From positions 4,301,001 through 4,365,000 of the forward strand of contig NZ_JAJONE010000001.1 in assembly GCF_024700075.1 (NCBI RefSeq): 64,000 nucleotides of DNA, written 5' to 3'. Shown piece by piece: positions 28,395 to 55,308 of the stretch. The position numbers were made by a program, and so were the translations under genes. The stretch comes from Hymenobacter sp. J193 (GTDB lineage: Bacteria > Bacteroidota > Bacteroidia > Cytophagales > Hymenobacteraceae). The notes under the pieces are model-generated. The model was not told where the DNA came from, ran no database searches, and saw only the letters and a program-made list of their open reading frames with translations. Each line of letters begins with the position of its first letter. The first letter of the stretch is position 1.

Positions 28395-30956
28395 TTACCG
28401 GCGGCGGCGCAACGCCAAGTAGTCGAGGTAGTAGAGCACCTTCACCGAAAGGGAGTTGTTGTGCGGGGTGTTGATGGTGTTGTTGAAGTTGTCGAAGTAC
28501 TGGGGCGTAGCCTGCTCGGCCAGCAACTCGGTGTTGCCCGCATTTTTCCAGACGATGTTCACCTGCGAGCCGGGCGCAAACCACCAGCTGTACACCGCGT
28601 CCACGTTGAAGGCGTTGTAGGTGTTGTCGCGGTTGCGGCGGTAGTCGGCCAGAAATTCCTGCCCGTCTTCTTTCAGCACAGTAAAATCCTGGTAGCGCAC
28701 GTTGCTGGTGTAGTGGCGCAGGCGCAGGGTAAACGACATGCGGTTGGTGAAGGTGTAGGCGACGGAGGCCACGTTCGTGACGGTGGCCACGTTGCGGCGG
28801 CCCAGCAGAATCTGCCCCTGGAAGGGCAAATCCAGGTATTCGTCGGTGCTCAGTCCCCCGTTCACGTAGCCAATCTGGTTGCGCGCCAGATTCCAGTCGA
28901 GGCTGTAGCGGAAGGTAAGGTGGTCATTGACGCGGAAGCGTGGGTAGAAACCGGCGCGGTAGCGCAGGCGGCGGGGGCGAGGGCCCGGCAGCCGCTCATC
29001 CTGGGCGTAGTAGGTAGCTCCGGCATTCACGCCTACCGACAGCCGTTTCCGCGTGTCGGAGTTCAGGAAACCAATCCAGTCGGTGTTGGCCGGCACCCGC
29101 ACGTAGTAGTCGCCCAGCGGGAAGGTGCGCGGCTCGAAGAAGTCGTGCGACACGGGCGTGTGCATGAAGTCGTAGCCCACCTGCAGGAAGTTCTTGGTGA
29201 AGGTGGTGTTGAAGCCGTTGTAGAAGTACATGTTCTGGAAAAGCGTCGGCCGGTAGAGCAGCTGGTGGCCCACTTCCGAGTAGAAGTTCATGTTGTTTAC
29301 CTTCCAGAAGGGCTTGAAGATGCGGTAATTGGCGTAGGCGCTCTGGGTGATGTTGTTGTTGCCGAACAGGATGCCCAGGTCGTTGGGGTTGTAGTGGTCC
29401 GACTCGATGCGGTGGTTGAAGCCCCAGGTAAAGTTGCCGCTGACCTTGCCCACGCCCACCGTGTACTTGAAGCCGTTCTGGTCGTCGATAGCCTCGTCGG
29501 AGCCGAACCGGGTGCCGCGTCGGCGCGAATACACGATGCTGCCATCCACGGCGTAGGAGTTCTTTTTGTTGGCGAAGCGGAACAGCCCGCCCGTTACGTT
29601 GGCGTCGTAGGTGCTGCCCCAGCGCGTCACGTTGGTGTTGATGAGCGAGACGTAGGAGTTGTTTTTCAGGCTTTGGTCCAGCACCGCAATGTTATAGTTC
29701 GAGAATGGCTGGGTCAGCGCTTCCCGCTCCTCGCCGGTTTCGGTGTTGCGCACCGTGGCGTACACGTCGTTACTAAAGGCATTAAACAGCCCGATGCCCA
29801 GGCCCTTACTGGTGCGCCCCGAAATCTTGGTGGCGTTCAGCAGGCGGGTTTCGGCCGGGTTGCGCACGAGTTTCTCGTTATCCGCCAGCCCCACGCCGTA
29901 GAACCCGATGGGCGTGGCGCCCACGCGGCGGGAGTAAAACAGGTTGCCTTTGTTGAAAAGCTCCGTGCCTTCGGTGAAGAACTGGCGGTTTTCCTGAAAC
30001 TGCACCTCGAAGGGCGAGAGGTTCAGCACCTGGTTGTCGCTCTGCACCTGCCCGAAGTCGGGCACCAGCGTGGCGTCCAGCGTGAAGCTTTCGTTGATGC
30101 CCCACTTCACATCAGCGCCCCCATTGAAGGAAGTCGTGGTGCGGCGCGTACCCTCGGCGTTCAGCGGGTTGTGGTTCACGTAGCTGGAAATATAGGGCGT
30201 GAGCGAGAGGCGAAGCGGAGGCTTCAGGCCCTTCAGCCCGGTCAGCTCGCCCCACTGGTTCACGAAGCCATCCACTTCGTGCTTCACCTCACTCCAGAAA
30301 AAATCCTGGCGCAAAGCCTGGCGCCGGCGCATAAACTGCAGGCCCCACTGCTGCACCTCAGCCGTGCTGAAGCGGATGGCGGAGTAGGGAATGCGCATTT
30401 CGGCTACCCAGTCGGTGCCGCGCTGGGCAGTGCGGGCGTCCCACACGGCGTTCCAGGCAAAGTCCTCGCCGCTGGCCGGGGAGTAGCGCGCATCGGCCTG
30501 CACCCCGCCCGCCGTCACAATAAAGCCGTAGCCGTTCTGCTTGTCGTGGTAGGTGTCGAGGAAGATGCCGAAGAAGTCGGTGTTGGGCAGGTGGTCCCGC
30601 TCGCCCAGTTCCCGCTTGATGGAGTCGGGGGCCACGTCGTGCATGATGGTGCCCACGTAGATGGCCGCGTCGTCGTAGAGGATGCGCACCTCGGTGGGGT
30701 GCTGCTCGCGGGGGCCGGGCTTGGGCCGGTTCTGAATGAAGTCGGTAGCCACCGGGGCCTGCTGCCACAAGGCTTCATCGAGTATCCCATCCAGCTTGAT
30801 GGCTTCGCTGATGCGCACGGCCTGCAGCTGGCGCTTGGGTGCGGCGGCCACCGGAGCAGCAGCAGCCGGGGCAGATGGGGAGGTTTGGGCCACGGCCCGG
30901 GGTGCCCCGAGCCCCAGCATCGCCAGGGCAAGGAGGAGAATAGTACAGGTTTTCAT
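28395..30956 (-). CDS. DUF5916 outer-membrane protein with N-terminal CBM9-like domain
   Basis: The protein has 853 residues starting at ATG 30956 with signal MKTCTILLLALAMLGLGAP. A CBM9-like sugar-binding domain (about 50-230) shows IKLDGILDEALWQQA, then DDAAIYVG and MRIPYSAIRFS. The DUF5916 region follows, with many alternating beta strands (GADVKWGINESFTLDATLVPDFG, QVQSD, FFTEGTELF) and a basic tail ending RRR, consistent with an outer-membrane barrel. The function of the family is unknown; the CBM9 part suggests binding of glycans at the surface (inference). It is transcribed in the same direction as the DUF4097 module upstream but separated by about 127 bases, so co-expression is only possible. 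Confidence 0.85.
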   Translation of the reverse strand: MKTCTILLLALAMLGLGAPRAVAQTSPSAPAAAAPVAAAPKRQLQAVRISEAIKLDGILDEALWQQAPVATDFIQNRPKPGPREQHPTEVRILYDDAAIYVGTIMHDVAPDSIKRELGERDHLPNTDFFGIFLDTYHDKQNGYGFIVTAGGVQADARYSPASGEDFAWNAVWDARTAQRGTDWVAEMRIPYSAIRFSTAEVQQWGLQFMRRRQALRQDFFWSEVKHEVDGFVNQWGELTGLKGLKPPLRLSLTPYISSYVNHNPLNAEGTRRTTTSFNGGADVKWGINESFTLDATLVPDFGQVQSDNQVLNLSPFEVQFQENRQFFTEGTELFNKGNLFYSRRVGATPIGFYGVGLADNEKLVRNPAETRLLNATKISGRTSKGLGIGLFNAFSNDVYATVRNTETGEEREALTQPFSNYNIAVLDQSLKNNSYVSLINTNVTRWGSTYDANVTGGLFRFANKKNSYAVDGSIVYSRRRGTRFGSDEAIDDQNGFKYTVGVGKVSGNFTWGFNHRIESDHYNPNDLGILFGNNNITQSAYANYRIFKPFWKVNNMNFYSEVGHQLLYRPTLFQNMYFYNGFNTTFTKNFLQVGYDFMHTPVSHDFFEPRTFPLGDYYVRVPANTDWIGFLNSDTRKRLSVGVNAGATYYAQDERLPGPRPRRLRYRAGFYPRFRVNDHLTFRYSLDWNLARNQIGYVNGGLSTDEYLDLPFQGQILLGRRNVATVTNVASVAYTFTNRMSFTLRLRHYTSNVRYQDFTVLKEDGQEFLADYRRNRDNTYNAFNVDAVYSWWFAPGSQVNIVWKNAGNTELLAEQATPQYFDNFNNTINTPHNNSLSVKVLYYLDYLALRRRR

Positions 30957-31083
30957 AGCGCAGAAAGGTTGTGGAGGCAGCGGGTATTGACGAAGAACGA
31001 GGGCGGAGGCTGCAGGCCTTGGCAAGCCCGCTAATCAGCTTGTAAGTCTGATCGGGCGTGGAAACTCTCGCTTCGGGAAATGG

Positions 31084-31815
31084 TTACTTGCGCCGGCGAA
31101 AATAAATGTCGCTGCTGATGGATTCGAGCTGAACGAGCGGGCCGTTGCTGCCCAGGTTGCCACGCAACTGGTAACCAATCAATGGGTTGTCCTTGCGGTT
31201 GCTGAAGGCCACATCATGGTCGGTATACACTTCACCGGTAATGGTTTTCAGCGCCAGCTCCGCCGAGGAAGCGGCCCAGGTCACGTCCACGAAGCCGCTG
31301 ATGGACTTGGCCTCGATAGCGCCGGAGAGGCCCTGGATATCGATGTTGCCGCTGATAGTTTTCACGCACAGCGTCACGCCGGGCGGCACGGTAATGTCAT
31401 ATTCCACGTTCAGGCACACGCGGTAAGAGGTATTTTCGTCGGAGCCATCCGTGCCTTTCTTGCTGCTCCCGTAGTTATTACCGAACTGCGTGCCGCCATC
31501 CGGGCAGTCCCCGGACTGAGCATTGCGCAACAGGGCCATGTCGAGGTCGGAGTTGAAGCGAACTTCCTCCGCCGATTGGTCCTGTGTGAGCTGCAGCGCC
31601 TCGTTCAGCCGGTTCTGGTTGATATCCACGGTGGCTTTCAGGGATATTTTGCCGGCCGCCCCCGCCCGGATGCGGATGTTGGTGGCGTGCTTGAGGTTGA
31701 GGAACACCCGCTGGCCCGAGCTAAGGGCTACGGATTTCTCAATGATTTTCTGGGCCTGGGCGGGCTGGCAGAAACCGGCAATCAGGCAAAGCAGGAGAAC
31801 TAGAAACCGGGACAT
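31084..31815 (-). CDS. DUF4097-type exported beta-repeat protein (module 1, last gene)
   Basis: The protein has 243 residues with signal MSRFLVLLLCLIAGFCQPAQA. The mature part is short beta repeats in which charged and hydrophobic residues alternate. Repeat cores are KTISGNIDIQ, KSISGFVDVTW, KTITGEVYTD and ESISSDIYFRRRK. These (S/T)(I/V)(S/T)G-(D/E) cores mark DUF4097, thought to form a right-handed beta-helix-like surface. An insert at about 105-130 with Cys (SGDCPDGGTQFG and YRVCLNVEY) is not seen in the other three members and may form a disulphide. It lies 56 bases after the preceding DUF4097 gene and is probably the last gene of the sigma/anti-sigma operon. Likely an envelope protein under that sigma factor. 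Confidence 0.82.
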   Translation of the reverse strand: MSRFLVLLLCLIAGFCQPAQAQKIIEKSVALSSGQRVFLNLKHATNIRIRAGAAGKISLKATVDINQNRLNEALQLTQDQSAEEVRFNSDLDMALLRNAQSGDCPDGGTQFGNNYGSSKKGTDGSDENTSYRVCLNVEYDITVPPGVTLCVKTISGNIDIQGLSGAIEAKSISGFVDVTWAASSAELALKTITGEVYTDHDVAFSNRKDNPLIGYQLRGNLGSNGPLVQLESISSDIYFRRRK

Positions 31816-31871
31816 GCTATTCAGGAGTTGAGGTTGATAGGTTGGGAAGTAGGTCAGGCGTTACGCGGAGC

Positions 31872-32639
31872 TTATTTGGCCTTGCGCACGTAGATGTCGC
31901 CGCTTACCGACTTGAGCGAAACCGGGGTGCCACCGCCGTTCACGGTGCCGTTCACCACCTGGCCGCCCACATGGTTCAGGTCGCCCTGGGTTTTGGGCAG
32001 CGTGATGTCGAAGTCGGTGTAGATTTCGCCCGAAATGGAGCGCAGCTGCAGGGTGGCTTTGCTGGCGGCGGGCATGGTCACGTCCACGTCGCCGCTCACG
32101 GCCGAAATGGAGCTGGGGCCGGGCCGCATGGCCGAGTAGCGCACCGTTATGTCGCCGCTGACGGTGTTGGCCACCACGGGGCCGGCCACGTTCAGCAGCT
32201 TCACGTCGCCGTTTTTCATGTTCACTTCCAGGTTGCCGCTCACGTCCCGGATTTGCAGGTCGCCGCCGTTCCAGTTGGTTTGGTTGTACTCCACGGCGGT
32301 AGCGCGGGGCACCCGAATGACGTAGGTAGCTTCTTTGCGGGAGGCCCGGGCAATGCGCACAGTGTTGTCCTGCTCGGTCACCGCAATGCCGAGGTTGGTG
32401 TTGTCGACGGCCGTATTGTACACGGCTTTCAGGCCTTCGGCGCGCTTGGGCGCTGGCTCGAAGCCATTGCCGCGAATCACCAGCTCGTTGCCATCGTAGC
32501 CTTCCACGGTCACGTCGGAGCCCTGCATGTCGATGATGACCTTGCGGTCTTTGCTGAGTTTGGTTTTGTACTCCTGGGCGTGGAGAGAAACGGTGGCGGC
32601 CAGCAGGCCGCAGAAGGTAAGGATCAGGGGCTTTTTCAT
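31872..32639 (-). CDS. DUF4097-type exported beta-repeat protein (module 1, third gene)
   Basis: The protein has 255 residues from ATG 32639, giving the signal MKKPLILTFCGLLAATVSLHA. An upstream in-frame start would bury the signal. The repeats are very regular: RDVSGNLEVNMKNGDVKLLN, NTVSGDITVRY, SAVSGDVDVTMP, RSISGEIYTDFDITLP, KSVSGDIYVRKAK. The first half binds strongly basic segments (KLSKDRKVIIDMQGSDVTVEG). There is no enzyme motif. It lies about 150 bases after the HEAT anti-sigma gene. In the sister module the same position is held by 35343-36221, whose layout and repeat type match. The role is unknown; an exported target or ligand of the anti-sigma factor is plausible. Confidence 0.85.
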   Translation of the reverse strand: MKKPLILTFCGLLAATVSLHAQEYKTKLSKDRKVIIDMQGSDVTVEGYDGNELVIRGNGFEPAPKRAEGLKAVYNTAVDNTNLGIAVTEQDNTVRIARASRKEATYVIRVPRATAVEYNQTNWNGGDLQIRDVSGNLEVNMKNGDVKLLNVAGPVVANTVSGDITVRYSAMRPGPSSISAVSGDVDVTMPAASKATLQLRSISGEIYTDFDITLPKTQGDLNHVGGQVVNGTVNGGGTPVSLKSVSGDIYVRKAK

Positions 32640-32788
32640 AAGAGCTTGTTGAAAAATGAGGGCAAGGAGCAGCCCGCCGGACTCGCACGTTCCGACAACC
32701 AAGGGCAGCCTTTGTATTGAAAAAAGAAGGAGAAGAGAAAAGCAGAAAGCAGGGGGAGTATTCGGCCCGAACTTTCCCGCGGGCTTGG

Positions 32789-33628
32789 TTAAATCAGTTT
32801 GCCGAGGCCAGCCTGGGCCTGGTCGCGCACCACCGGCAGGGCGTCTTTGCGGCGGGCCAGGCGCTGCAGCGGGGGCACGGCCCGCGGGTCGCGCAGGGCC
32901 ACCATCAGCTCGATCAGGGTAATCTGCACGTTCGGGTCCGTCTGAATGGGCAGGGAGTGCACAAAGGCCTCGGCCACGCGCGGGTCGGCGCGGAGGCGGA
33001 ATAGCGCCTCACCGGCAGCCACACGCACGTTGGGGTTAGGGTCGAAGTTGAGCGTATTGATGAGCACCTGCACGGTAGGGTCGCCGGGCGTTAACTCCTC
33101 TCCCGAAGCCGTCACCAGCTGAATCCGGTCACTCGCGGAAGCCGGTTGAGAAGCCGTGCCGGCCAGGTTGGCGGCCAACTGCTGAGCCGGGGCCGGGCTG
33201 TCAGTCGGGTTAGCCGCCACTTCAGGGTTTTGTCCGGGGCGGCTGGGCAGGTAGCGGCCCAAGAGTACTCCGCCAGCTACCAGCAGCACCGCGGCCGCCA
33301 CACGCAGCCACTGGCTGGCTACCGCTGCGGCCCAAAGCGGCACTACCCGAGCAGGGGCAGCGGGTGCAGGAGTAGCGGATGCGGTCAGTAGAGCCTTTTG
33401 CTCCTCCAGCATAGCCAGAAAGTTGGAGCGCATGGCCGTGCGGGGCGCTTCGGGCAAGGCCGCGTCCAACTCGTGGCTGAGCAGCCGGAGCTGCTGTAGC
33501 TGGTGCTGACAAGCGGGGCAGGAAGCCAGGTGGGCGGCTACTTGCTCAGCCTCGGCGGCGAGCAGGCTGCCATCGGCGTAGGCCGGCAGCAAAGCTTCGA
33601 AGTCGTTGCAGGAAGTGAACGTATGCAT
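32789..33628 (-). CDS. Anti-sigma factor with zinc finger, TM segment and periplasmic HEAT repeats (module 1)
   Basis: The protein has 279 residues. The cytosolic N-terminus carries a zf-HC2 anti-sigma zinc finger, with Cys at about residue 7 (SCNDFEALLPAYADGSL) and HLASCPACQHQL supplying the His-x3-Cys-x2-Cys ligands. One TM helix follows at about 100-125 (LRVAAAVLLVAGGVLLGRYL). The periplasmic part has a Pro/Ala-rich linker, then HEAT-type repeats (DPTVQVLINTLNFDPNPNVRVAAGEALFRL, then DPNVQITLIELMVALRDPRAVPPLQRLA). Such factors hold an ECF sigma factor at the membrane and release it on a signal. The HEAT part is probably the sensor or partner-binding part. The gene sits 16 bases after the sigma gene stop. 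Confidence 0.88.
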   Translation of the reverse strand: MHTFTSCNDFEALLPAYADGSLLAAEAEQVAAHLASCPACQHQLQQLRLLSHELDAALPEAPRTAMRSNFLAMLEEQKALLTASATPAPAAPARVVPLWAAAVASQWLRVAAAVLLVAGGVLLGRYLPSRPGQNPEVAANPTDSPAPAQQLAANLAGTASQPASASDRIQLVTASGEELTPGDPTVQVLINTLNFDPNPNVRVAAGEALFRLRADPRVAEAFVHSLPIQTDPNVQITLIELMVALRDPRAVPPLQRLARRKDALPVVRDQAQAGLGKLI

Positions 33629-33644
33629 GGAAGGCGGAGAGTTG

Positions 33645-34220
33645 CTAATCCGAGAAATACACTTTGCGCAGGGCCTGCAGGGCGCGGTGGGCTTTCACGC
33701 GGGCGGCTTCGGCGGTGCAACCCAGGAGCTGGCCTATTTCGTCGTAGCCAAAGCCCTGGAAGCGGTTGAGCAGCAAGATTTCGCGTTGGTTGGTGGGTAG
33801 TTGGGCCAGCGCTTCGTGGAGGTCGTCGTAGTGGCCGCTGACGCGCATCTGGGAAAAGGCTGCGCCGCGTAAGCCACCGTGGCGCTCCACCTCATCCACG
33901 TCGGCCGTACGCAGCTTTTCCTGGCGGTGCCAGTGGTCGGCGTAGCTGTTGCGGGCCATCTGAAACACCCAGGCTTTGAAGGGCTGGCCGGGCTGGTAGC
34001 TGGCCCGGTATTTCAGCACCCGCTCAAACACGCTTTGGGCCAAATCTTCACTGGTTTCCCGGTCGTTGCAGAGGCGGTAGAGGTAGTTGAACAAGGGCCC
34101 GTGGTAGCGCTCAAACAAGGGCACGAGCTGATCGAGGTCGTTGGCCTTCACGGCAGCCATCAGGTCTTCGTCGCTCGGGCGGGCGGTGGTCACGGAGAAA
34201 GTTTTTGGAGGGTTGTGCAA
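33645..34220 (-). CDS. ECF sigma-70 factor (module 1)
   Basis: The protein has 191 residues. Sigma region 2 shows LFERYHGPLFNYLYRLCND, EDLAQSVFERVLKYRASY and FKAWVFQMARNSYADHWHRQEK. Region 4 shows LPTNQREILLLNRFQGFGYDEIGQLLGCTAEAARVKAHRALQALR. This places it in the extracytoplasmic-function group. It directs RNA polymerase to specific promoters when freed from the anti-sigma factor encoded next. The ATG at 34220 lies close after a palindromic region. Sister of 37076-37648, with similar motifs but a different N-terminus and region linker. It probably controls this operon itself, but no shared promoter box could be confirmed. Confidence 0.92.
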   Translation of the reverse strand: MHNPPKTFSVTTARPSDEDLMAAVKANDLDQLVPLFERYHGPLFNYLYRLCNDRETSEDLAQSVFERVLKYRASYQPGQPFKAWVFQMARNSYADHWHRQEKLRTADVDEVERHGGLRGAAFSQMRVSGHYDDLHEALAQLPTNQREILLLNRFQGFGYDEIGQLLGCTAEAARVKAHRALQALRKVYFSD

Positions 34221-34277
34221 GGAGTACCGGCCGCAAGCCCATTCGTTACAGGGGTAGTGAAATTTTTTTGATGACCT

Positions 34278-34333
34278 GAAAAACCCTGAACGTCATGCTG
34301 AGCGAAGGCGAAGCATGACGTTCAGGGTTTTTC
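34278..34333. repeat. Palindrome (TCATGCTGAGC type) between the two modules
   Basis: A perfect stem GAAAAACCCTGAACGTCATGCT with a 12-base loop lies 58 bases upstream of the module 1 sigma gene and downstream of the module 2 terminator. The core CGTCATGCTGAGCG...GAAGCATGACG belongs to the dispersed palindrome family. A run of T after the second arm could also terminate transcripts. Confidence 0.75.
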
Positions 34334-34363
34334 AAACAGACCTTTCAGGATTAAAAATGAAAA

Positions 34364-34401
34364 AAGCCAGCGGCTCTCCCGGGAAGGGAAGCCGCTGGCT
34401 T
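34364..34401 (-). terminator. Terminator of module 2
   Basis: A 12-bp stem AAGCCAGCGGCT / AGCCGCTGGCTT followed on the minus strand by T-rich bases (34352-34363) lies about 120 bases after the last DUF4097 stop of module 2. Confidence 0.7.
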
Positions 34402-34519
34402 ATCAAGTTGGTATCATCAATAGCCGTTCTGCTGCGCCCAGCCCGGCCGGCACCGGCTGGTGGGAGTCACTCACCACAGCTACCCACCGGTGGCGGCCGG
34501 GGCTGAGCGCAGAGAAGGG

Positions 34520-35346
34520 TTATTTCGCCCGGCGGATGTAGATGTCGCCGTTTAGGGTTTTCATCATAAACTCGGGGCCACCGTTGTTGATTTTGCCGTA
34601 GGTCCAGGTGTCCTGGGCCACGCGGTAGGTGCCGTCTTTGGCCGTGCGCGTCACTTTAGCGGGGTTGCTGTCTACGCTCAGGTCAAAGTCGCTATAGATG
34701 TCGCCGTGGTCGGACTTGAGCTTCACCGAAACGTTGGCCCGGGCCGGCAGCGTTACGTCTACCTTGCCGTTGATGGTGGAGAAGGCCATGGGGGCACCGG
34801 CGGTTATCTGCTTGAAGTCGGCAATGACCTCGCCGTTCACCGTGTTCAGCACCGCCGAGCCGGCCACGTCGTTGAGGCGGATGGAGCCGTTCACGTTGGA
34901 TATTTCCAGCTCGCCTTCCACGTTGTCCACCACAATGTCGCCGTTCTGCACGGTGGCCAGCTTCAGGGAAAACTGGCGCGGCACTTTGATGACGAAATCC
35001 ACCGGGTTTTGCCAGGACTGGGTTTTCACGTACACCTGGTTGTCGCGCTCCTGGGCTGTTACGTCCAGGCCACTGGCTTGGGAGATGCGGCGCATGCCCG
35101 AGGCATTTTCGTTGCCGGCCGACTCGCGCCGCCCGCCCCGCGTGGCTACTTCAATAACTACTTCCTTGCCGGCGTAGCCCGTGACTTTGATGCCGCCGCC
35201 CACGAGCTTGAGGTGCAGGGTACCCGGCTTGCCGGGGAGCTGAGGGCCACCGTCATCTGCTCCCTGGCAGCCTGCTGGGCCTGGGCCGGATGCAGCCAAA
35301 AGAGAGCGGCGAAGGCGAAAAGAAGTTGAAATATGCGCTGATTCAT
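34520..35346 (-). pseudogene. DUF4097-type exported protein (module 2, last gene), frameshifted
   Basis: The start ATG at 35346 gives a clear signal (MNQRIFQLLFAFAALFWLHP, ending AQAQQ) and MTVALS, after which the frame is lost. The continuation lies in the -1 frame from about 35243: PGKPGTLHLKLVGGGIKVTGYAGKEVVIEV, then repeats ENVEGELEIS-like, NTVNGEVIADF, STINGKVDVTLP and KTLNGDIYIRRAK. One missing base at about 35233-35243 explains it. The ATG overlaps the stop of the upstream DUF4097 gene (ATGA-type overlap), so translation would be coupled. The rest is intact, so this is a very recent lesion or a base-calling error. Confidence 0.8.
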
Positions 35347-36221
35347 CGGGTTTGCTGTTTAATGGTGACGTCGCCGTTCAGGGTTTCCAGGCGAATGTTG
35401 GGGCCGCCCTTGCCGAGGCGCACGGCCGTTTCCTTGCGGAGCTTGTACTTGGTGCCGGCTCCTTCGCGCTCGGTATTCTGGGTGATGGTGGCGGGCAGAT
35501 TTTCCGTCTGCGGGAAGTCGGTGTACATTTCCCCGTGCATGCTCTTGAAGTAGAGGTCAGCCGAGGCCGTGGGCGGGTAGCTCACCGTAATGTCGCCGTT
35601 GATGGTCTTGTAGGAAGCCGCGGCCATGGGAGCCGCCGTGAGGGCTACTTCCACCGGGCCGTTCACGGTGTGGGCTTTGGATACTTCGCGGGCATTTTTG
35701 ATGATGATGCCGCCGTTCACGTTGCTGGCTTGCAGCAGGCCGTTCACGTTTTCTACCCGCACCTCGCCGCCGTTCACCGTCGACAAGGTCACTTTCATGT
35801 CGCGGGGCACTTTCACGGTGAAGTCGAGGCTGAACTGATAGTGCCGCTCGTCACTGCTCCAGTGCTGGCTGTGCAGGGTATGGCGGGGGCGCGAGTCGAA
35901 AGGAGCCTGCTGGTACACAATTACGCTGTCGTTGCGCTGCAGGAAGCCTGGCTGCACGTCTTTCCGGGCTTCGGCCAGGGCCGTGGCGTCGTCGGCTTTC
36001 AGGGTTTTGGTGACTTCCACCACTACTTTGTTGCCGGTGGTGCCTTCTACCCGCACCGAGCCGAAGATGTTGTAGAGGGCCAGGGTGCTGCGGCCGGCGT
36101 CGCCGGAGAGGGTGAATTCGCGGCTTACTTTTTCCGTGGCTTCCCGGTCCTGGGCTTGCAGCGAGCAGCTAGGCAGCCACAGAAGTGTCCAGAGTAGCAG
36201 AGTTATGATGTGTGGTTTCAT
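35343..36221 (-). CDS. DUF4097-type exported beta-repeat protein (module 2, third gene)
   Basis: The protein has 292 residues with signal MKPHIITLLLWTLLWLPSCSL. A Cys near the end of the hydrophobic stretch (LPSC) allows a lipoprotein reading. Repeats are STVNGGEVRVENVNGLLQASNVNGG, HTVNGPVEVAL, KTINGDITVSYP, KSMHGEMYTDFP and ETLNGDVTIKQQTR. The core is TVNG rather than SVSG, so it belongs to a different subgroup from module 1. The start overlaps the end of the HEAT anti-sigma gene by 53 bases. The stop overlaps the start of the last gene by 4 bases. All four module 2 genes are therefore packed with overlaps. Confidence 0.85.
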   Translation of the reverse strand: MKPHIITLLLWTLLWLPSCSLQAQDREATEKVSREFTLSGDAGRSTLALYNIFGSVRVEGTTGNKVVVEVTKTLKADDATALAEARKDVQPGFLQRNDSVIVYQQAPFDSRPRHTLHSQHWSSDERHYQFSLDFTVKVPRDMKVTLSTVNGGEVRVENVNGLLQASNVNGGIIIKNAREVSKAHTVNGPVEVALTAAPMAAASYKTINGDITVSYPPTASADLYFKSMHGEMYTDFPQTENLPATITQNTEREGAGTKYKLRKETAVRLGKGGPNIRLETLNGDVTIKQQTR

Positions 36222-37101
36222 CGGAGTTCGAGGGGGTTGAGGGAGCCGCGGGGGCGCGGTCGTGGGACAAAGACTGAATGCTCTGCTCGATTTTGGTTTT
36301 CACTTGCTCGTTGAGGTTGTCCTGCTGGAGCAGCTTGCGCAGGGGGCGCACCGAGCGGCGCTCCTGGAGCTGCACCATCAGATCGGCCAGCGCCGACTGC
36401 ACCAGGGGGGACTCCTGGTAGGTGAGGGAGCGAACCAGCCCTTGGCGCACGGTGGGGTCGTCGGCCATGCTGCCCAGAGCGTCCAGGGTAGCTAGGCGCA
36501 CGTTCACGTTGGGGTCTTGGTTGAGGGTGCTGAGTAGGGCCGCCAGCACCCGCTCGTTGGTGGGGGCTACTTGCTCGGCCTCACTCACGGCCTGCAGGCG
36601 CTGCACGGCCGAGGGGTTGTTGAGGCGCGAAATCAGCCCTACCTGCCGGGCCGTGGCGGCCGGGCTTTCCGTTGAAACCTGGGCCAGGGGCTCGTCAGCT
36701 CCCGCACTGGTTTCACCGCCTCTGAGCCCGTAGCCGATACCCAAACCTGCCAGCAACAAGACCAGGCTATAGGCCAGGCGCTGGGCAAAAGCCGGCTGCC
36801 ACCACTGGCGCAGCCGCTCCAGCAGCCCCGCCACCGACCAGCGCTGCCGTTGCTGCTCCTCGGCCTTGAAGTCGGCCAGCATGGCGTAGAAGTTGGGCCG
36901 CAGCTCTTCGCTGGGTGCCGGCACGGGCAGGTTGCCCATAGCGGCCCAGAGCTGCTGCACGCCTTCCAGCTCGTGCTGGCAGTCGGGGCACTGGGCCAGG
37001 TGAGCAGCCAAGGCTTGCTGGTCCGTTTCGGGTAGCTCGCCCGCCAGCCAGCTCATCAGCTCCTGCTGCACTTCTTCACAGTTTCTGAATCTTGCTTCCA
37101 T
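36169..37101 (-). CDS. Anti-sigma factor with zinc finger, TM segment and HEAT repeats (module 2)
   Basis: The protein has 310 residues. The N-terminal zinc-finger region (MEARFRNCEEVQQELMSWL, then HLAQCPDCQHEL) gives the zf-HC2 ligands. One TM helix lies at about 108-126 (LAYSLVLLLAGLGIGYGL). The periplasmic part carries HEAT-like repeats: NPSAVQRLQAVSEAEQ, DPNVNVRLATLDALGSMADDPTVRQGL and SPLVQSALADLMVQLQERRSVRPL. A Ser/Thr/Asn-rich tail follows. The layout matches 32789-33628 very closely. It overlaps the sigma gene by 26 bases upstream and the DUF4097 gene by 53 bases downstream, giving coupled production. Confidence 0.88.
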   Translation of the reverse strand: MEARFRNCEEVQQELMSWLAGELPETDQQALAAHLAQCPDCQHELEGVQQLWAAMGNLPVPAPSEELRPNFYAMLADFKAEEQQRQRWSVAGLLERLRQWWQPAFAQRLAYSLVLLLAGLGIGYGLRGGETSAGADEPLAQVSTESPAATARQVGLISRLNNPSAVQRLQAVSEAEQVAPTNERVLAALLSTLNQDPNVNVRLATLDALGSMADDPTVRQGLVRSLTYQESPLVQSALADLMVQLQERRSVRPLRKLLQQDNLNEQVKTKIEQSIQSLSHDRAPAAPSTPSNSDETTHHNSATLDTSVAA

Positions 37102-37648
37102 TCTCCATTTGCAAATAGATGTCCTTCAATTGGCAGAGGGCCCGGTGCGCGCGCACCTTCACGGCCCCCTCCGTGATGTTGAGCAGCTGCGCTATCTGCT
37201 CGTATTTCAGCTCCTGAAAGCGGCTCAGCACCAGCACCTCGCGCTGGTCGGGGCTGAGGCGGGCCAGGGCCCGGTGGAGCTGCGCTTCTTCCTGGGTGCG
37301 CTGCAGGTGGGCGTCGGCCGACGTGCCGCCCGCAATTTTCTCGGCCCAGTCGGCAATGTCCTGGTGGTGGGCCGAGGGCTTGTTTTTCTTGGCGGCATCG
37401 GCCAGCACGTTGCGCGCCAGGTGGTACATCCACGTCCGGAACTCGCCCTCCCCGGTGAAGGTGTGCCGGTACTTGAGCATGCGGTAAAACACGTTCTGCA
37501 CCAAGTCTTCGCTGGCCGTGGCATTGCCGTTGGAGTGGTAGAAGAACGCCAGCAACGGCCGGTGGTAGCGTTCAAACAACAGGCCCATCTTCTCCACCTG
37601 GCCAGCCTTCACCTGGAGCATGAGCGAGTTGTCGGTAAGCGAGTTCAA
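37076..37648 (-). CDS. ECF sigma-70 factor (module 2)
   Basis: The protein has 190 residues. Region 2 shows LLFERYHRPLLAFFYHSNG, EDLVQNVFYRMLKYRHTF and FRTWMYHLARNVLADAAKKNK. Region 4 shows LSPDQREVLVLSRFQELKYEQIAQLLNITEGAVKVRAHRALCQL. It is the same ECF type as 33645-34220 and heads an identical gene order. The end overlaps the anti-sigma gene by 26 bases. The upstream intergenic stretch (37649-37949) carries a long palindrome but no recognised -7 box. Confidence 0.92.
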   Translation of the reverse strand: MNSLTDNSLMLQVKAGQVEKMGLLFERYHRPLLAFFYHSNGNATASEDLVQNVFYRMLKYRHTFTGEGEFRTWMYHLARNVLADAAKKNKPSAHHQDIADWAEKIAGGTSADAHLQRTQEEAQLHRALARLSPDQREVLVLSRFQELKYEQIAQLLNITEGAVKVRAHRALCQLKDIYLQMENGSKIQKL

Positions 37649-37833
37649 GGTGTTGGCTGGTAGGTTGGTGGCGAATTCGGACGTGGAAACTGTGCCTTTT
37701 CGGGAAGGTTACCGCCGAACGAGAAAATATTTTTCGGGGAGGGCTGCTGCGTTTTGATAGAATATCAGACAGGCTACCACAAAGTCATGGTGAGCGAAGC
37801 CAAGGCATTTCGCGTGCTGACGTTGTGGAAGTA

Positions 37834-37920
37834 ACCGTCATGCTGAGCGGAGTCGAAGCATCTCTACCGAACGATTCAACTAAGCGGTAGAGATGCTTCG
37901 ACTTCGCTCAGCATGACGGT
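37834..37920. repeat. Dispersed long palindrome (TCATGCTGAGC type)
   Basis: Arms of 36 bases (37834-37869 and 37885-37920) pair with one mismatch around a 15-base loop. The cores are ACCGTCATGCTGAGC and TCGAAGCATCTCTACCG. It lies 29 bases past the stop of the phosphatase-like gene. A further fragment (GTCATGGTGAGCGAAGCC) sits at about 37785-37802. The rest of the 301-base gap between 37649 and 37949 is empty. Confidence 0.85.
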
Positions 37921-37949
37921 CTTTTTCTAGTTATAGAGGAAGCATCCTC

Positions 37950-38330
37950 TTAAAGCACGTCCTCTCCTAGATGCTCGCTTAGCCGTTCGCGGAGCAAATC
38001 CTGAAGGATGTGGTCCATGAACTGGAATTTGTCGGGGATGCGCAGCACCACTAGGCGCTTGCCGGTTAGCGCATCGGCAAACTTCTGGCGGAGGGAGTCG
38101 GCGTGCTTGCGCTCCATCACCAGCACCACATCGGCCCAGCCGAGGTGGCCGGCCGTCACGCGCACCCGGGCGCCGGGCTCGGTGCCGGCCGAGCGGGCCT
38201 CGTAGTGCGGGTGCTGGTCGAACAGCCGCTCGGCGGTGAGGCTGCGCCAGCGGTTCTGGCTGCAGATGAACAGCAATTTTTGGGACTGAAAGTCAGCGGA
38301 ATTGGCGGTGGCGGGAGAGGAAGTCGGCAT
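37950..38330 (-). CDS. Low-molecular-weight phosphatase-like protein (COG4551 type)
   Basis: The protein has 126 residues. The P-loop C-x5-R-S is FICSQNRWRS, with Cys23 and Arg29. YEARSAGT and the WADVVLVMERKHADSLRQKF region follow, and the late acidic part has IPDKFQFMD with the likely general-acid Asp. This matches small predicted protein tyrosine phosphatases rather than the larger arsenate-reductase-like group. The target in the cell is unknown. It is a single gene facing the bglX-type gene in the divergent direction, with about 64 bases between starts. The ATG at 38330 gives a short Ser/Ala tail before the core. Confidence 0.8.
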   Translation of the reverse strand: MPTSSPATANSADFQSQKLLFICSQNRWRSLTAERLFDQHPHYEARSAGTEPGARVRVTAGHLGWADVVLVMERKHADSLRQKFADALTGKRLVVLRIPDKFQFMDHILQDLLRERLSEHLGEDVL

Positions 38331-55195: not shown

Positions 55196-55286
55196 GTCAT
55201 GCTGAGCTTGTCGAAGCATCTCTGCCGCTTCGTCTGGATATCATTCAAACAAAGCGGTAGAGATGCTTCGACAAGCTCAGCATGAC
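55196..55286. repeat. Dispersed long palindrome (TCATGCTGAGC type)
   Basis: Arms of 35 bases (55196-55230 and 55252-55286) pair with one mismatch around a 21-base loop. The cores are GTCATGCTGAGCTTGTCGAAG and its complement. It lies between the converging aldo/keto reductase and DAC-domain genes, starting 11 bases after the former stop. The arms share TCGAAGCATCTCTACCG with 37834-37920. Confidence 0.85.
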
Positions 55287-55308
55287 GTTTAGCTGAAGGC
55301 CCAATTCT

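Follow-up and report, generated by a model that had tools for sequence, protein, structure and literature searches.

The window analysed here is a stretch of 64,000 nucleotides (nt) from Hymenobacter sp. J193 (phylum Bacteroidota, order Cytophagales; contig NZ_JAJONE010000001.1, positions 4,301,001 to 4,365,000), whose genome is assembled as 5.66 Mb in 7 contigs. It carries two neighbouring four-gene modules, A and B, each encoding an extracytoplasmic function (ECF) sigma factor, an anti-sigma factor with HEAT repeats and two DUF4097-type proteins of the toastrack fold. The four-gene order recurs across Bacteroidota, where A and B form two deep lineages with different promoter-like elements before their sigma genes. 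We put at about even the chance that each module is a self-regulated switch that monitors the envelope, its toastracks guarding the HEAT part of the anti-sigma factor. A broader proposal is offered as rather unlikely but worth stating: that Bacteroidota share two ECF circuits, A and B, of ancient origin and running in parallel, each with a periplasmic HEAT scaffold gated by a dedicated toastrack pair, and that their separate promoter codes converge, often cross-wired, on DUF5916, forming an undescribed class of transmembrane signalling in which two matched sensors feed one shared output.

Layout of the two modules

Modules A and B are both encoded on the minus strand, each as sigma factor, anti-sigma factor, toastrack and toastrack in that order. 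A first-pass annotation, made from the sequence alone, had described two same-strand runs in identical order, and the positions of the open reading frames (ORFs) and the Pfam matches agree. Its reading of gene content was right as well, but did not extend to DUF5916, to the promoters or to the frame break of toastrack A2. The features are listed below.

37684..37712, minus strand: predicted autoregulatory promoter of module A, GTAACCTT-N14-GTTTCCA, of ECF -35/-10 type
37076..37648, minus strand: ECF sigma factor of module A, TTG start, Sigma70_r2 and r4 by Pfam
36169..37101, minus strand: anti-sigma factor of module A, with zf-HC2 at residues 8-42, a transmembrane (TM) segment at about 104-126 and HEAT at about 147-280 (Pfam and AlphaFold2)
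35343..36221, minus strand: toastrack A1, predicted to be exported
34520..35346, minus strand: toastrack A2, PF13349 with E 3.2e-9; body ORF 34520-35299, signal-peptide frame starting at 35346
34358..34402, minus strand: terminator-like hairpin between the modules, -32.6 kcal/mol, z -5.6 for 34350-34425
34221..34249, minus strand: predicted autoregulatory promoter of module B, GTAACG-N15-GGTACTCC
about 33645..34193, minus strand: ECF sigma factor of module B (Pfam); the listed ORF starts at 34220, and a GTG start at 34193 is likelier because the promoter ends at 34221
32789..33628, minus strand: anti-sigma factor of module B, with zf-HC2, TM segment and HEAT (Pfam)
31872..32639, minus strand: toastrack B1, predicted to be exported, PF13349 with E 1.1e-15; ATG at 32639 is the chosen start
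31084..31815, minus strand: toastrack B2, predicted to be exported, no Pfam match of its own, member of the second-toastrack group
31059..31087, minus strand: predicted A-type promoter before the DUF5916 gene, behind module B, 1 mismatch; position weight matrix (PWM) score 20.7, 0/200 shuffles
28395..30956, minus strand: DUF5916 (PF19313) protein with a CBM9-like N-terminus (Pfam), an associated regulon gene whose product is presumed to sit in the outer membrane

With start codons partly chosen, the genes of module A overlap by 26 nt (sigma/anti-sigma), 53 nt (anti-sigma/DUF4097) and about 4 nt (last pair), and those of module B are separated by about 16, 149 and 56 nt. One copy had been called the more tightly overlapped; this is module A, the copy at higher coordinates. 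Because the hairpin between the modules is stable and is accompanied by a U-tract, A and B are taken as two transcription units. Generic scans of 30950-38000 stay at chance, both for terminators (6 versus 8.0 expected) and for sigma-70 promoters (2 versus 1.3 expected).

In toastrack A2 the signal-peptide frame is out of step with the body frame. The gene is intact in the nearest relative, locus L146, and the break is either an artefact of sequencing or a true lesion of the gene. An identical TTG-AAC start of the module A sigma gene is found in relatives such as L087, L089 and L148; the TTG codon perhaps keeps the level of this sigma factor low. The genome is close to Hymenobacter guriensis, with 96% identity in the anti-sigma factor.

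Recurrence across Bacteroidota

Whole-genome searches with the anti-sigma factor give matches in 51 of 61 genomes of the genus, 66 of 194 of the order and 81 of 395 of the phylum, many of the low-scoring phylum-level matches spanning one domain only. A first set of 80 Bacteroidota loci was picked by score and spread before their neighbours were viewed; these contain 88 HEAT anti-sigma genes, which make 90 with the two of the window. Their surrounding ORFs were annotated with our own iterated profiles, since Pfam alone is too weak for toastracks and places just two of the four in the window above its cut-off. The order sigma factor, anti-sigma factor and at least two toastracks on one strand is present at 80 of the 90 genes, and at least one toastrack lies next downstream at 89, the exception being locus L098.

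The second set consists of 80 named loci, the best 80 of 386 relatives; it overlaps the first in species and is likewise derived from the anti-sigma factor. Represented are Hymenobacter, Spirosoma, Dyadobacter, Runella, Larkinella, Fibrisoma and Emticicia among others, as well as Chitinophagaceae, a Prolixibacteraceae metagenome-assembled genome and a Flavobacterium. Here the four-gene order is found in 84 of 90 cases, with several of the misses at contig ends. The suggestion that the four genes form a recurrent, self-contained module, for which co-location in other genomes was the test, is upheld by both sets. Some variants were seen: in L109 and L110 (family f19) the order is sigma factor, toastrack, anti-sigma factor, toastrack, and in L104 and L105 (family f18) a second ECF-like sigma ORF lies past two opposite-strand ORFs after a module with one toastrack.

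Protein families, domains and export

Both sigma factors of the window match PF04542 and PF08281/PF04545 above cut-off with no region 3 match, which is the Pfam pattern of an ECF factor. Both anti-sigma factors match zf-HC2 and HEAT_2, and neither has a FecR match by Pfam. An AlphaFold2 model of the module A anti-sigma factor (mean predicted local distance difference test score 74.5) has N-terminal helices at 8-19, 25-37, 39-56 and 67-100, and a sigma gene is adjacent upstream of the anti-sigma gene in 88 of 90 cases of the second set. By these testable features, an N-terminal helical domain and an adjacent ECF gene, the proteins appear to belong to the class I kind of ECF anti-sigma factors. 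The first-pass annotation had given them a zinc finger. The zf-HC2 match holds for both window copies, but the finger does not define the family, the HxxxCxxC motif being kept in 42 of 90 anti-sigma factors.

Hydropathy gives a single TM segment in 165 of 180 anti-sigma factors, in keeping with the earlier description of a HEAT part beyond one TM helix. That description had also put the HEAT part in the periplasm; no sign of a cytosolic HEAT part was found in these proteins, and the periplasmic side is what their topology would imply. HEAT is the best-conserved part of the anti-sigma factor, with mean identity of 41% versus 25% for the anti-sigma domain, which fits a fixed protein partner. Compared with PDB, the HEAT model finds nothing specific, its best matches being designed alpha-repeat/HEAT proteins and armadillo proteins.

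Among the four toastracks of the window, PF13349 scores above cut-off in two (34520-35299 and 31872-32702) and below threshold in A1 (35343-36221, E 0.0017), and does not match B2 (31084-31815). The predicted fold of A1 is a toastrack, and homology and position together suggest the same placement for B2. As an independent check, PF13349 at E<=0.01 matches 82 of the 89 toastracks in first position and 63 of the 80 in second position; no RseB family occurs among the Pfam matches of these 89 first and 80 second partner proteins. Export of the DUF4097 proteins, proposed earlier, agrees with signal-like N-termini, detected by a home-made heuristic, in 177 of 178 toastracks encoded first and in 159 of 166 encoded second.

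The same count bears on whether the modules could be of the phage shock protein (PSP) or Lia type, with intracellular toastracks scaffolding a complex beneath the membrane. The toastrack is a recurrent PSP partner according to PMC11237479, and NCBIfam models for LiaG and LiaX match weakly, below their curated cut-offs (best 46.9 versus 285 bits and 29.3 versus 350 bits). Signal-like starts on nearly all toastracks speak against such a location, as does the lack of any Pfam match to a PspA, PspC, LiaI-LiaF-TM or two-component family in the ten proteins scanned at 28395-38330 of the window, and we regard this explanation as very improbable. Slightly less improbable, though still doubtful in the extreme, is that the DUF4097 proteins are secreted adhesins and that the module governs surface attachment. 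Related solved structures are titled "putative adhesin" and relatives bear the database name "adhesin domain-containing", but these are untested titles. Moreover, the Pfam matches in the two toastrack sets that were scanned include no surface-sorting domain, and an ECF circuit together with the outer-membrane barrel genes described below fits envelope upkeep better.

Two ancient lineages

The first-pass annotation had aligned the two sigma factors and the two anti-sigma factors along their length and called the modules duplicates. The pairs do align, with identities of 39% over 176 columns and 32% over 293 columns, and the modules are paralogues, but by tree and identities they are ancient rather than local duplicates. 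A tree of the 90 anti-sigma factors (fast search without bootstrap, rooted at the midpoint and with several long branches) has a group A of 54 rows and a group B of 34 rows, with values of 93 and 99, respectively, in the Shimodaira-Hasegawa-like approximate likelihood ratio test (SH-aLRT); L127 and L143 fall outside both. The two groups cover identical families and classes, each containing families f1, f4, f5, f9, f11, f14, f18, f19, f26, f27 and f43, the last represented in B by L133 only.

For the trees of the other genes, A and B labels were assigned by profile score, and modules with fewer than two toastracks were left out of the toastrack trees. The labels change twice in the sigma tree (88 rows), once in the tree of first toastracks (80 rows) and once in that of second toastracks (80 rows). 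In a joint FastTree phylogeny of toastracks from modules with exactly two (152 rows), the labels A1, A2, B1 and B2 need 3 changes, the minimum. Counts at or near the minimum argue for a duplication of the whole module long ago. The modules thus appear to have been inherited as units, with toastracks in four groups, A1, A2, B1 and B2. Most likely, judging from these trees, the ancestral module already held two different toastracks, and the duplication predates the split of the sampled families. The repeat cores SVSG and TVNG, which had been noted as differing between the copies, do differ along the A/B division; this is no proof of different ligands.

Both modules are present in 22 of the 61 genus genomes, A only in 7, B only in 22 and neither in 10. 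Where both are present, they lie at most 15 kb apart in 12 of 22. A recent tandem duplication in a single strain, without wider meaning, would account for copies that are adjacent and alike in strand and order. It was rejected and has next to no probability left, given the low identities, the reach of A and B each across many families and classes, head-to-head pairs elsewhere (genome G070, locus L089; genome G350, locus L133) and the distinct promoters described next.

Promoter-like elements before the sigma genes

The 176 upstream stretches include 166 distinct ones (124 A, 42 B), which were used. The A element consists of CTGTAACCTT followed after 14 nt by GTTTCCAC, its -10 letters differing between families. 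For the B element, genomes of the window's genus have TGTAACGAAT paired with GGTACTCC, and other families have TGTAA[CT]G paired with CGTCT. GTAACCTT is found in 102 of 124 A upstreams, versus a mean of 0.6 and a largest count of 2 in 50 Markov shuffles; TGTAA[CT]G is found in 30 of 42 B upstreams, versus a mean of 1.4 and a largest count of 5 in as many shuffles. The complete B dyad occurs in 29 of 42.

Searched across the genus, the pattern GTAACCTY-N14-GTKTCCA is present in 29 of 29 A-bearing genomes and in 0 of the 32 others (Fisher p 4.6e-18); 29 of its 33 sites precede module A, and the reversed pattern has 2 matches. GTAACG-N15-GGTACYCC is present in 37 of 44 B-bearing genomes and 0 of 17 others, with 37 of its 51 sites before module B and 2 matches for the reversed control. 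Some of the genomes tested were also those from which the patterns were derived, which makes the matches there partly circular; this does not apply to the absence of the patterns elsewhere or to their near-uniqueness. Order-wide, a narrower A pattern occurs once each in 9 of 194 genomes, 8 times shortly before a HEAT anti-sigma module and once elsewhere (G157); it is found in none of the 128 order genomes without a module match, and its reversed control matches once. Each lineage thus seems to have its own autoregulatory promoter-like element before the sigma gene, and because these elements differ, A and B probably control different regulons. The first-pass annotation had suggested that the duplicates may respond to different signals; the difference observed here is one of promoters.

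Extra sites and DUF5916

Eighteen further A or B sites in the genus do not belong to a module; at 13 of them the gene behind the site encodes a standalone toastrack, DUF5916 or an OMP_b-brl_3 receptor. Behind the 14 extra B sites are 8 standalone toastracks (4 verified by Pfam, 8 by profile), 1 DUF5916 gene, 2 OMP_b-brl_3 receptors and, in 3 cases, nothing recognisable; the 8 toastracks form one orthologous family with a mean identity of 61%. Behind the 4 extra A sites are 1 DUF5916 gene, 1 OMP_b-brl_3 gene, 1 alpha/beta hydrolase and 1 family-less protein. Taken together, the sites suggest a regulon that includes toastracks, DUF5916 and receptor barrels.

DUF5916 is present in 61 of 61 genus genomes, and its presence alone therefore gives no link to the module. 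Of the 44 B modules, however, 22 have a DUF5916 gene on their own strand no more than 6 kb downstream, as do 8 of the 29 A modules; together these cases fall in 28 of the 51 genus genomes that carry a module. Fewer than 1 such case is expected by length arithmetic, and 8 partial-match rows are left out of the count. It stands directly after the module in 22/90 and 5/90 cases (second locus set).

Second promoters before 27 module-adjacent DUF5916 genes were scored by PWM against 200 shuffles in 81 tests, and fewer than 1 result of 0/200 is therefore expected by chance. A-type promoters before DUF5916 genes behind module B were found in the window, L146 and L159, and B-type promoters behind module A in L151, L126, L129 and L133, each at 0/200; the window and L146, being near-identical, were treated as a single case. 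Against cross-wiring, a DUF5916 gene behind A in L241 has an A-like promoter (0/200), and weak A-like matches (1-2/200) occur behind A in L130, L138 and L150/L171 (one sequence). For the remaining genes the second promoter is weak or absent. Both promoter codes appear to include DUF5916 genes, each in some of the genomes, and cross-wiring is tentative, coming from a small sample.

In the genome of the window itself, a search at 2 mismatches is uninformative (A, 18 versus 14 reversed; B, 50 versus 109 reversed), and only sites with 0-1 mismatches were weighed. One of the two A sites with 1 mismatch is that before DUF5916 (31059-31087). The other, G000:C1:4638952-4638980 (L325), lies 18 nt before an ORF of 295 amino acids (aa), whose predicted product has a signal-like N-terminus and looks like a serine hydrolase. 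The two B sites with 1 mismatch precede nothing recognisable, and the second DUF5916 gene of this genome has no convincing promoter.

Two further features of the window were noted. Directly upstream of module A on the minus strand, 37950-38330 encodes 126 aa with a match to PF01451, low-molecular-weight phosphatase. The partly palindromic repeat CGTCATGCTGAGCG occurs at 34291-34304, 37836-37849, 37905-37918 and 55274-55287, 4 matches at <=1 mismatch versus 0.02 expected, and is present in intergenic DNA before both modules; it looks like a dispersed element of the repetitive extragenic palindromic (REP) or miniature inverted-repeat transposable element (MITE) type.

Proposed mechanism

The anti-sigma factor would hold its ECF sigma factor at the membrane. 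The periplasmic HEAT part would serve as a docking scaffold on which the two toastracks of the operon sit, keeping the anti-sigma factor in its holding state, and they would guard it much as RseB guards RseA. A disturbed outer membrane, or disturbed beta-rich envelope proteins, might draw the toastracks off HEAT. The anti-sigma factor would then be inactivated, probably by regulated proteolysis, and the freed sigma factor would transcribe its own operon, replenishing anti-sigma factor and toastracks in a negative feedback, together with DUF5916 and outer-membrane barrel genes. A and B would be two ancient, parallel versions of this switch with distinct promoter codes.

The role of the toastracks is the least certain step. 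Their putative binding to HEAT is plausible, and that they act as guards there stands at about one half. Another possibility, short of an even chance but the most probable of the alternatives, is that toastracks are outputs that brace or patch the envelope, while HEAT senses something else, for example a misassembled barrel, a lipid or peptidoglycan. The standalone toastracks behind B sites favour outputs, and DUF5916 and OMP_b-brl_3 genes behind other extra sites and modules with three or four toastracks fit as well. The fixed inheritance of two toastracks per module and the conserved HEAT part favour guards: the two are strictly retained as separate orthologous groups and modules free of toastracks are nearly absent (1/90), which suggests a part in the circuit. 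The two roles may both hold.

Several observations weigh against toastracks as guards in a self-regulated switch. Standalone toastracks under B promoters fit an effector role equally well, and the own-genome standalone toastrack has no detectable B site. GTAACCTT is missing from 22 of 124 A upstreams and the B dyad from 13 of 42, and at 5 of the 18 extra sites the gene behind is of none of the three kinds named. The L098 module lacks a toastrack, and several others carry one, three or four. Finally, PMC11237479 argues for an intracellular toastrack.

The mode of action of toastrack/DUF4097 proteins is unsettled, and the modules give a concrete handle on an exported family of this kind, with a readable promoter code that ties toastrack and DUF5916 to a defined circuit. 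For work in Bacteroidota, modules A and B also provide two existing ECF switches that may be orthogonal.

Comparison with known systems

The modules are probably a variant of the ECF/anti-sigma envelope switch, of which RpoE/RseAB is the familiar example used for comparison. They differ from RpoE/RseA-RseB in that the presumed periplasmic part is HEAT, the partners are two toastracks, with no RseB matched, and the zinc motif is kept in a minority. FecI/FecR-type and glycan-utilisation ECF systems of Bacteroidota combine an ECF sigma factor, a TM anti-sigma factor and outer-membrane receptors. The modules share the first two with these systems and have outer-membrane receptors among their presumed targets; unlike them, they show no FecR match, and their receptor genes are remote, behind extra sites in some genomes only. 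Similarity to the ECF family NF058625 (PG0214/GFO_1088), whose setting we take to be Bacteroidota, is detectable for both sigma factors at 82.5 and 75.9 bits, below the 130-bit cut-off of that NCBIfam model. The literature searched, which leaves most subscription papers outside its coverage, contains neither a description of HEAT anti-sigma factors with toastracks nor the term DUF5916.

With ECF factors paired with class I anti-sigma factors (ASDI; RpoE/RseA-RseB, SigW/RsiW) the modules share adjacent sigma and anti-sigma genes, an N-terminal anti-sigma domain, one TM segment, a presumed periplasmic part, a predicted autoregulated promoter and one or more extra envelope genes in the operon, the ASDI features being those given in PMC7406223. 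With the toastrack partners of PSP and Lia systems (DUF4097/DUF2154/DUF2807; LiaG, LiaF, LiaX) they share the fold. PMC11237479 gives 4QRK and 4OPW as toastrack examples, links the toastrack to envelope stress and includes a context in which an operonic sigma factor stands beside a DUF2089-like protein; as described there, that is an architecture different from the HEAT anti-sigma module. No PspA, PspC, LiaF or two-component match accompanies the toastracks in the ten window proteins, and the modules are under ECF/HEAT anti-sigma control. Their toastracks have signal-like N-termini, whereas PMC11237479 argues for an intracellular location in PSP/Lia systems. The modules occur in easily grown environmental bacteria and make this question, periplasmic versus cytosolic toastracks, testable.

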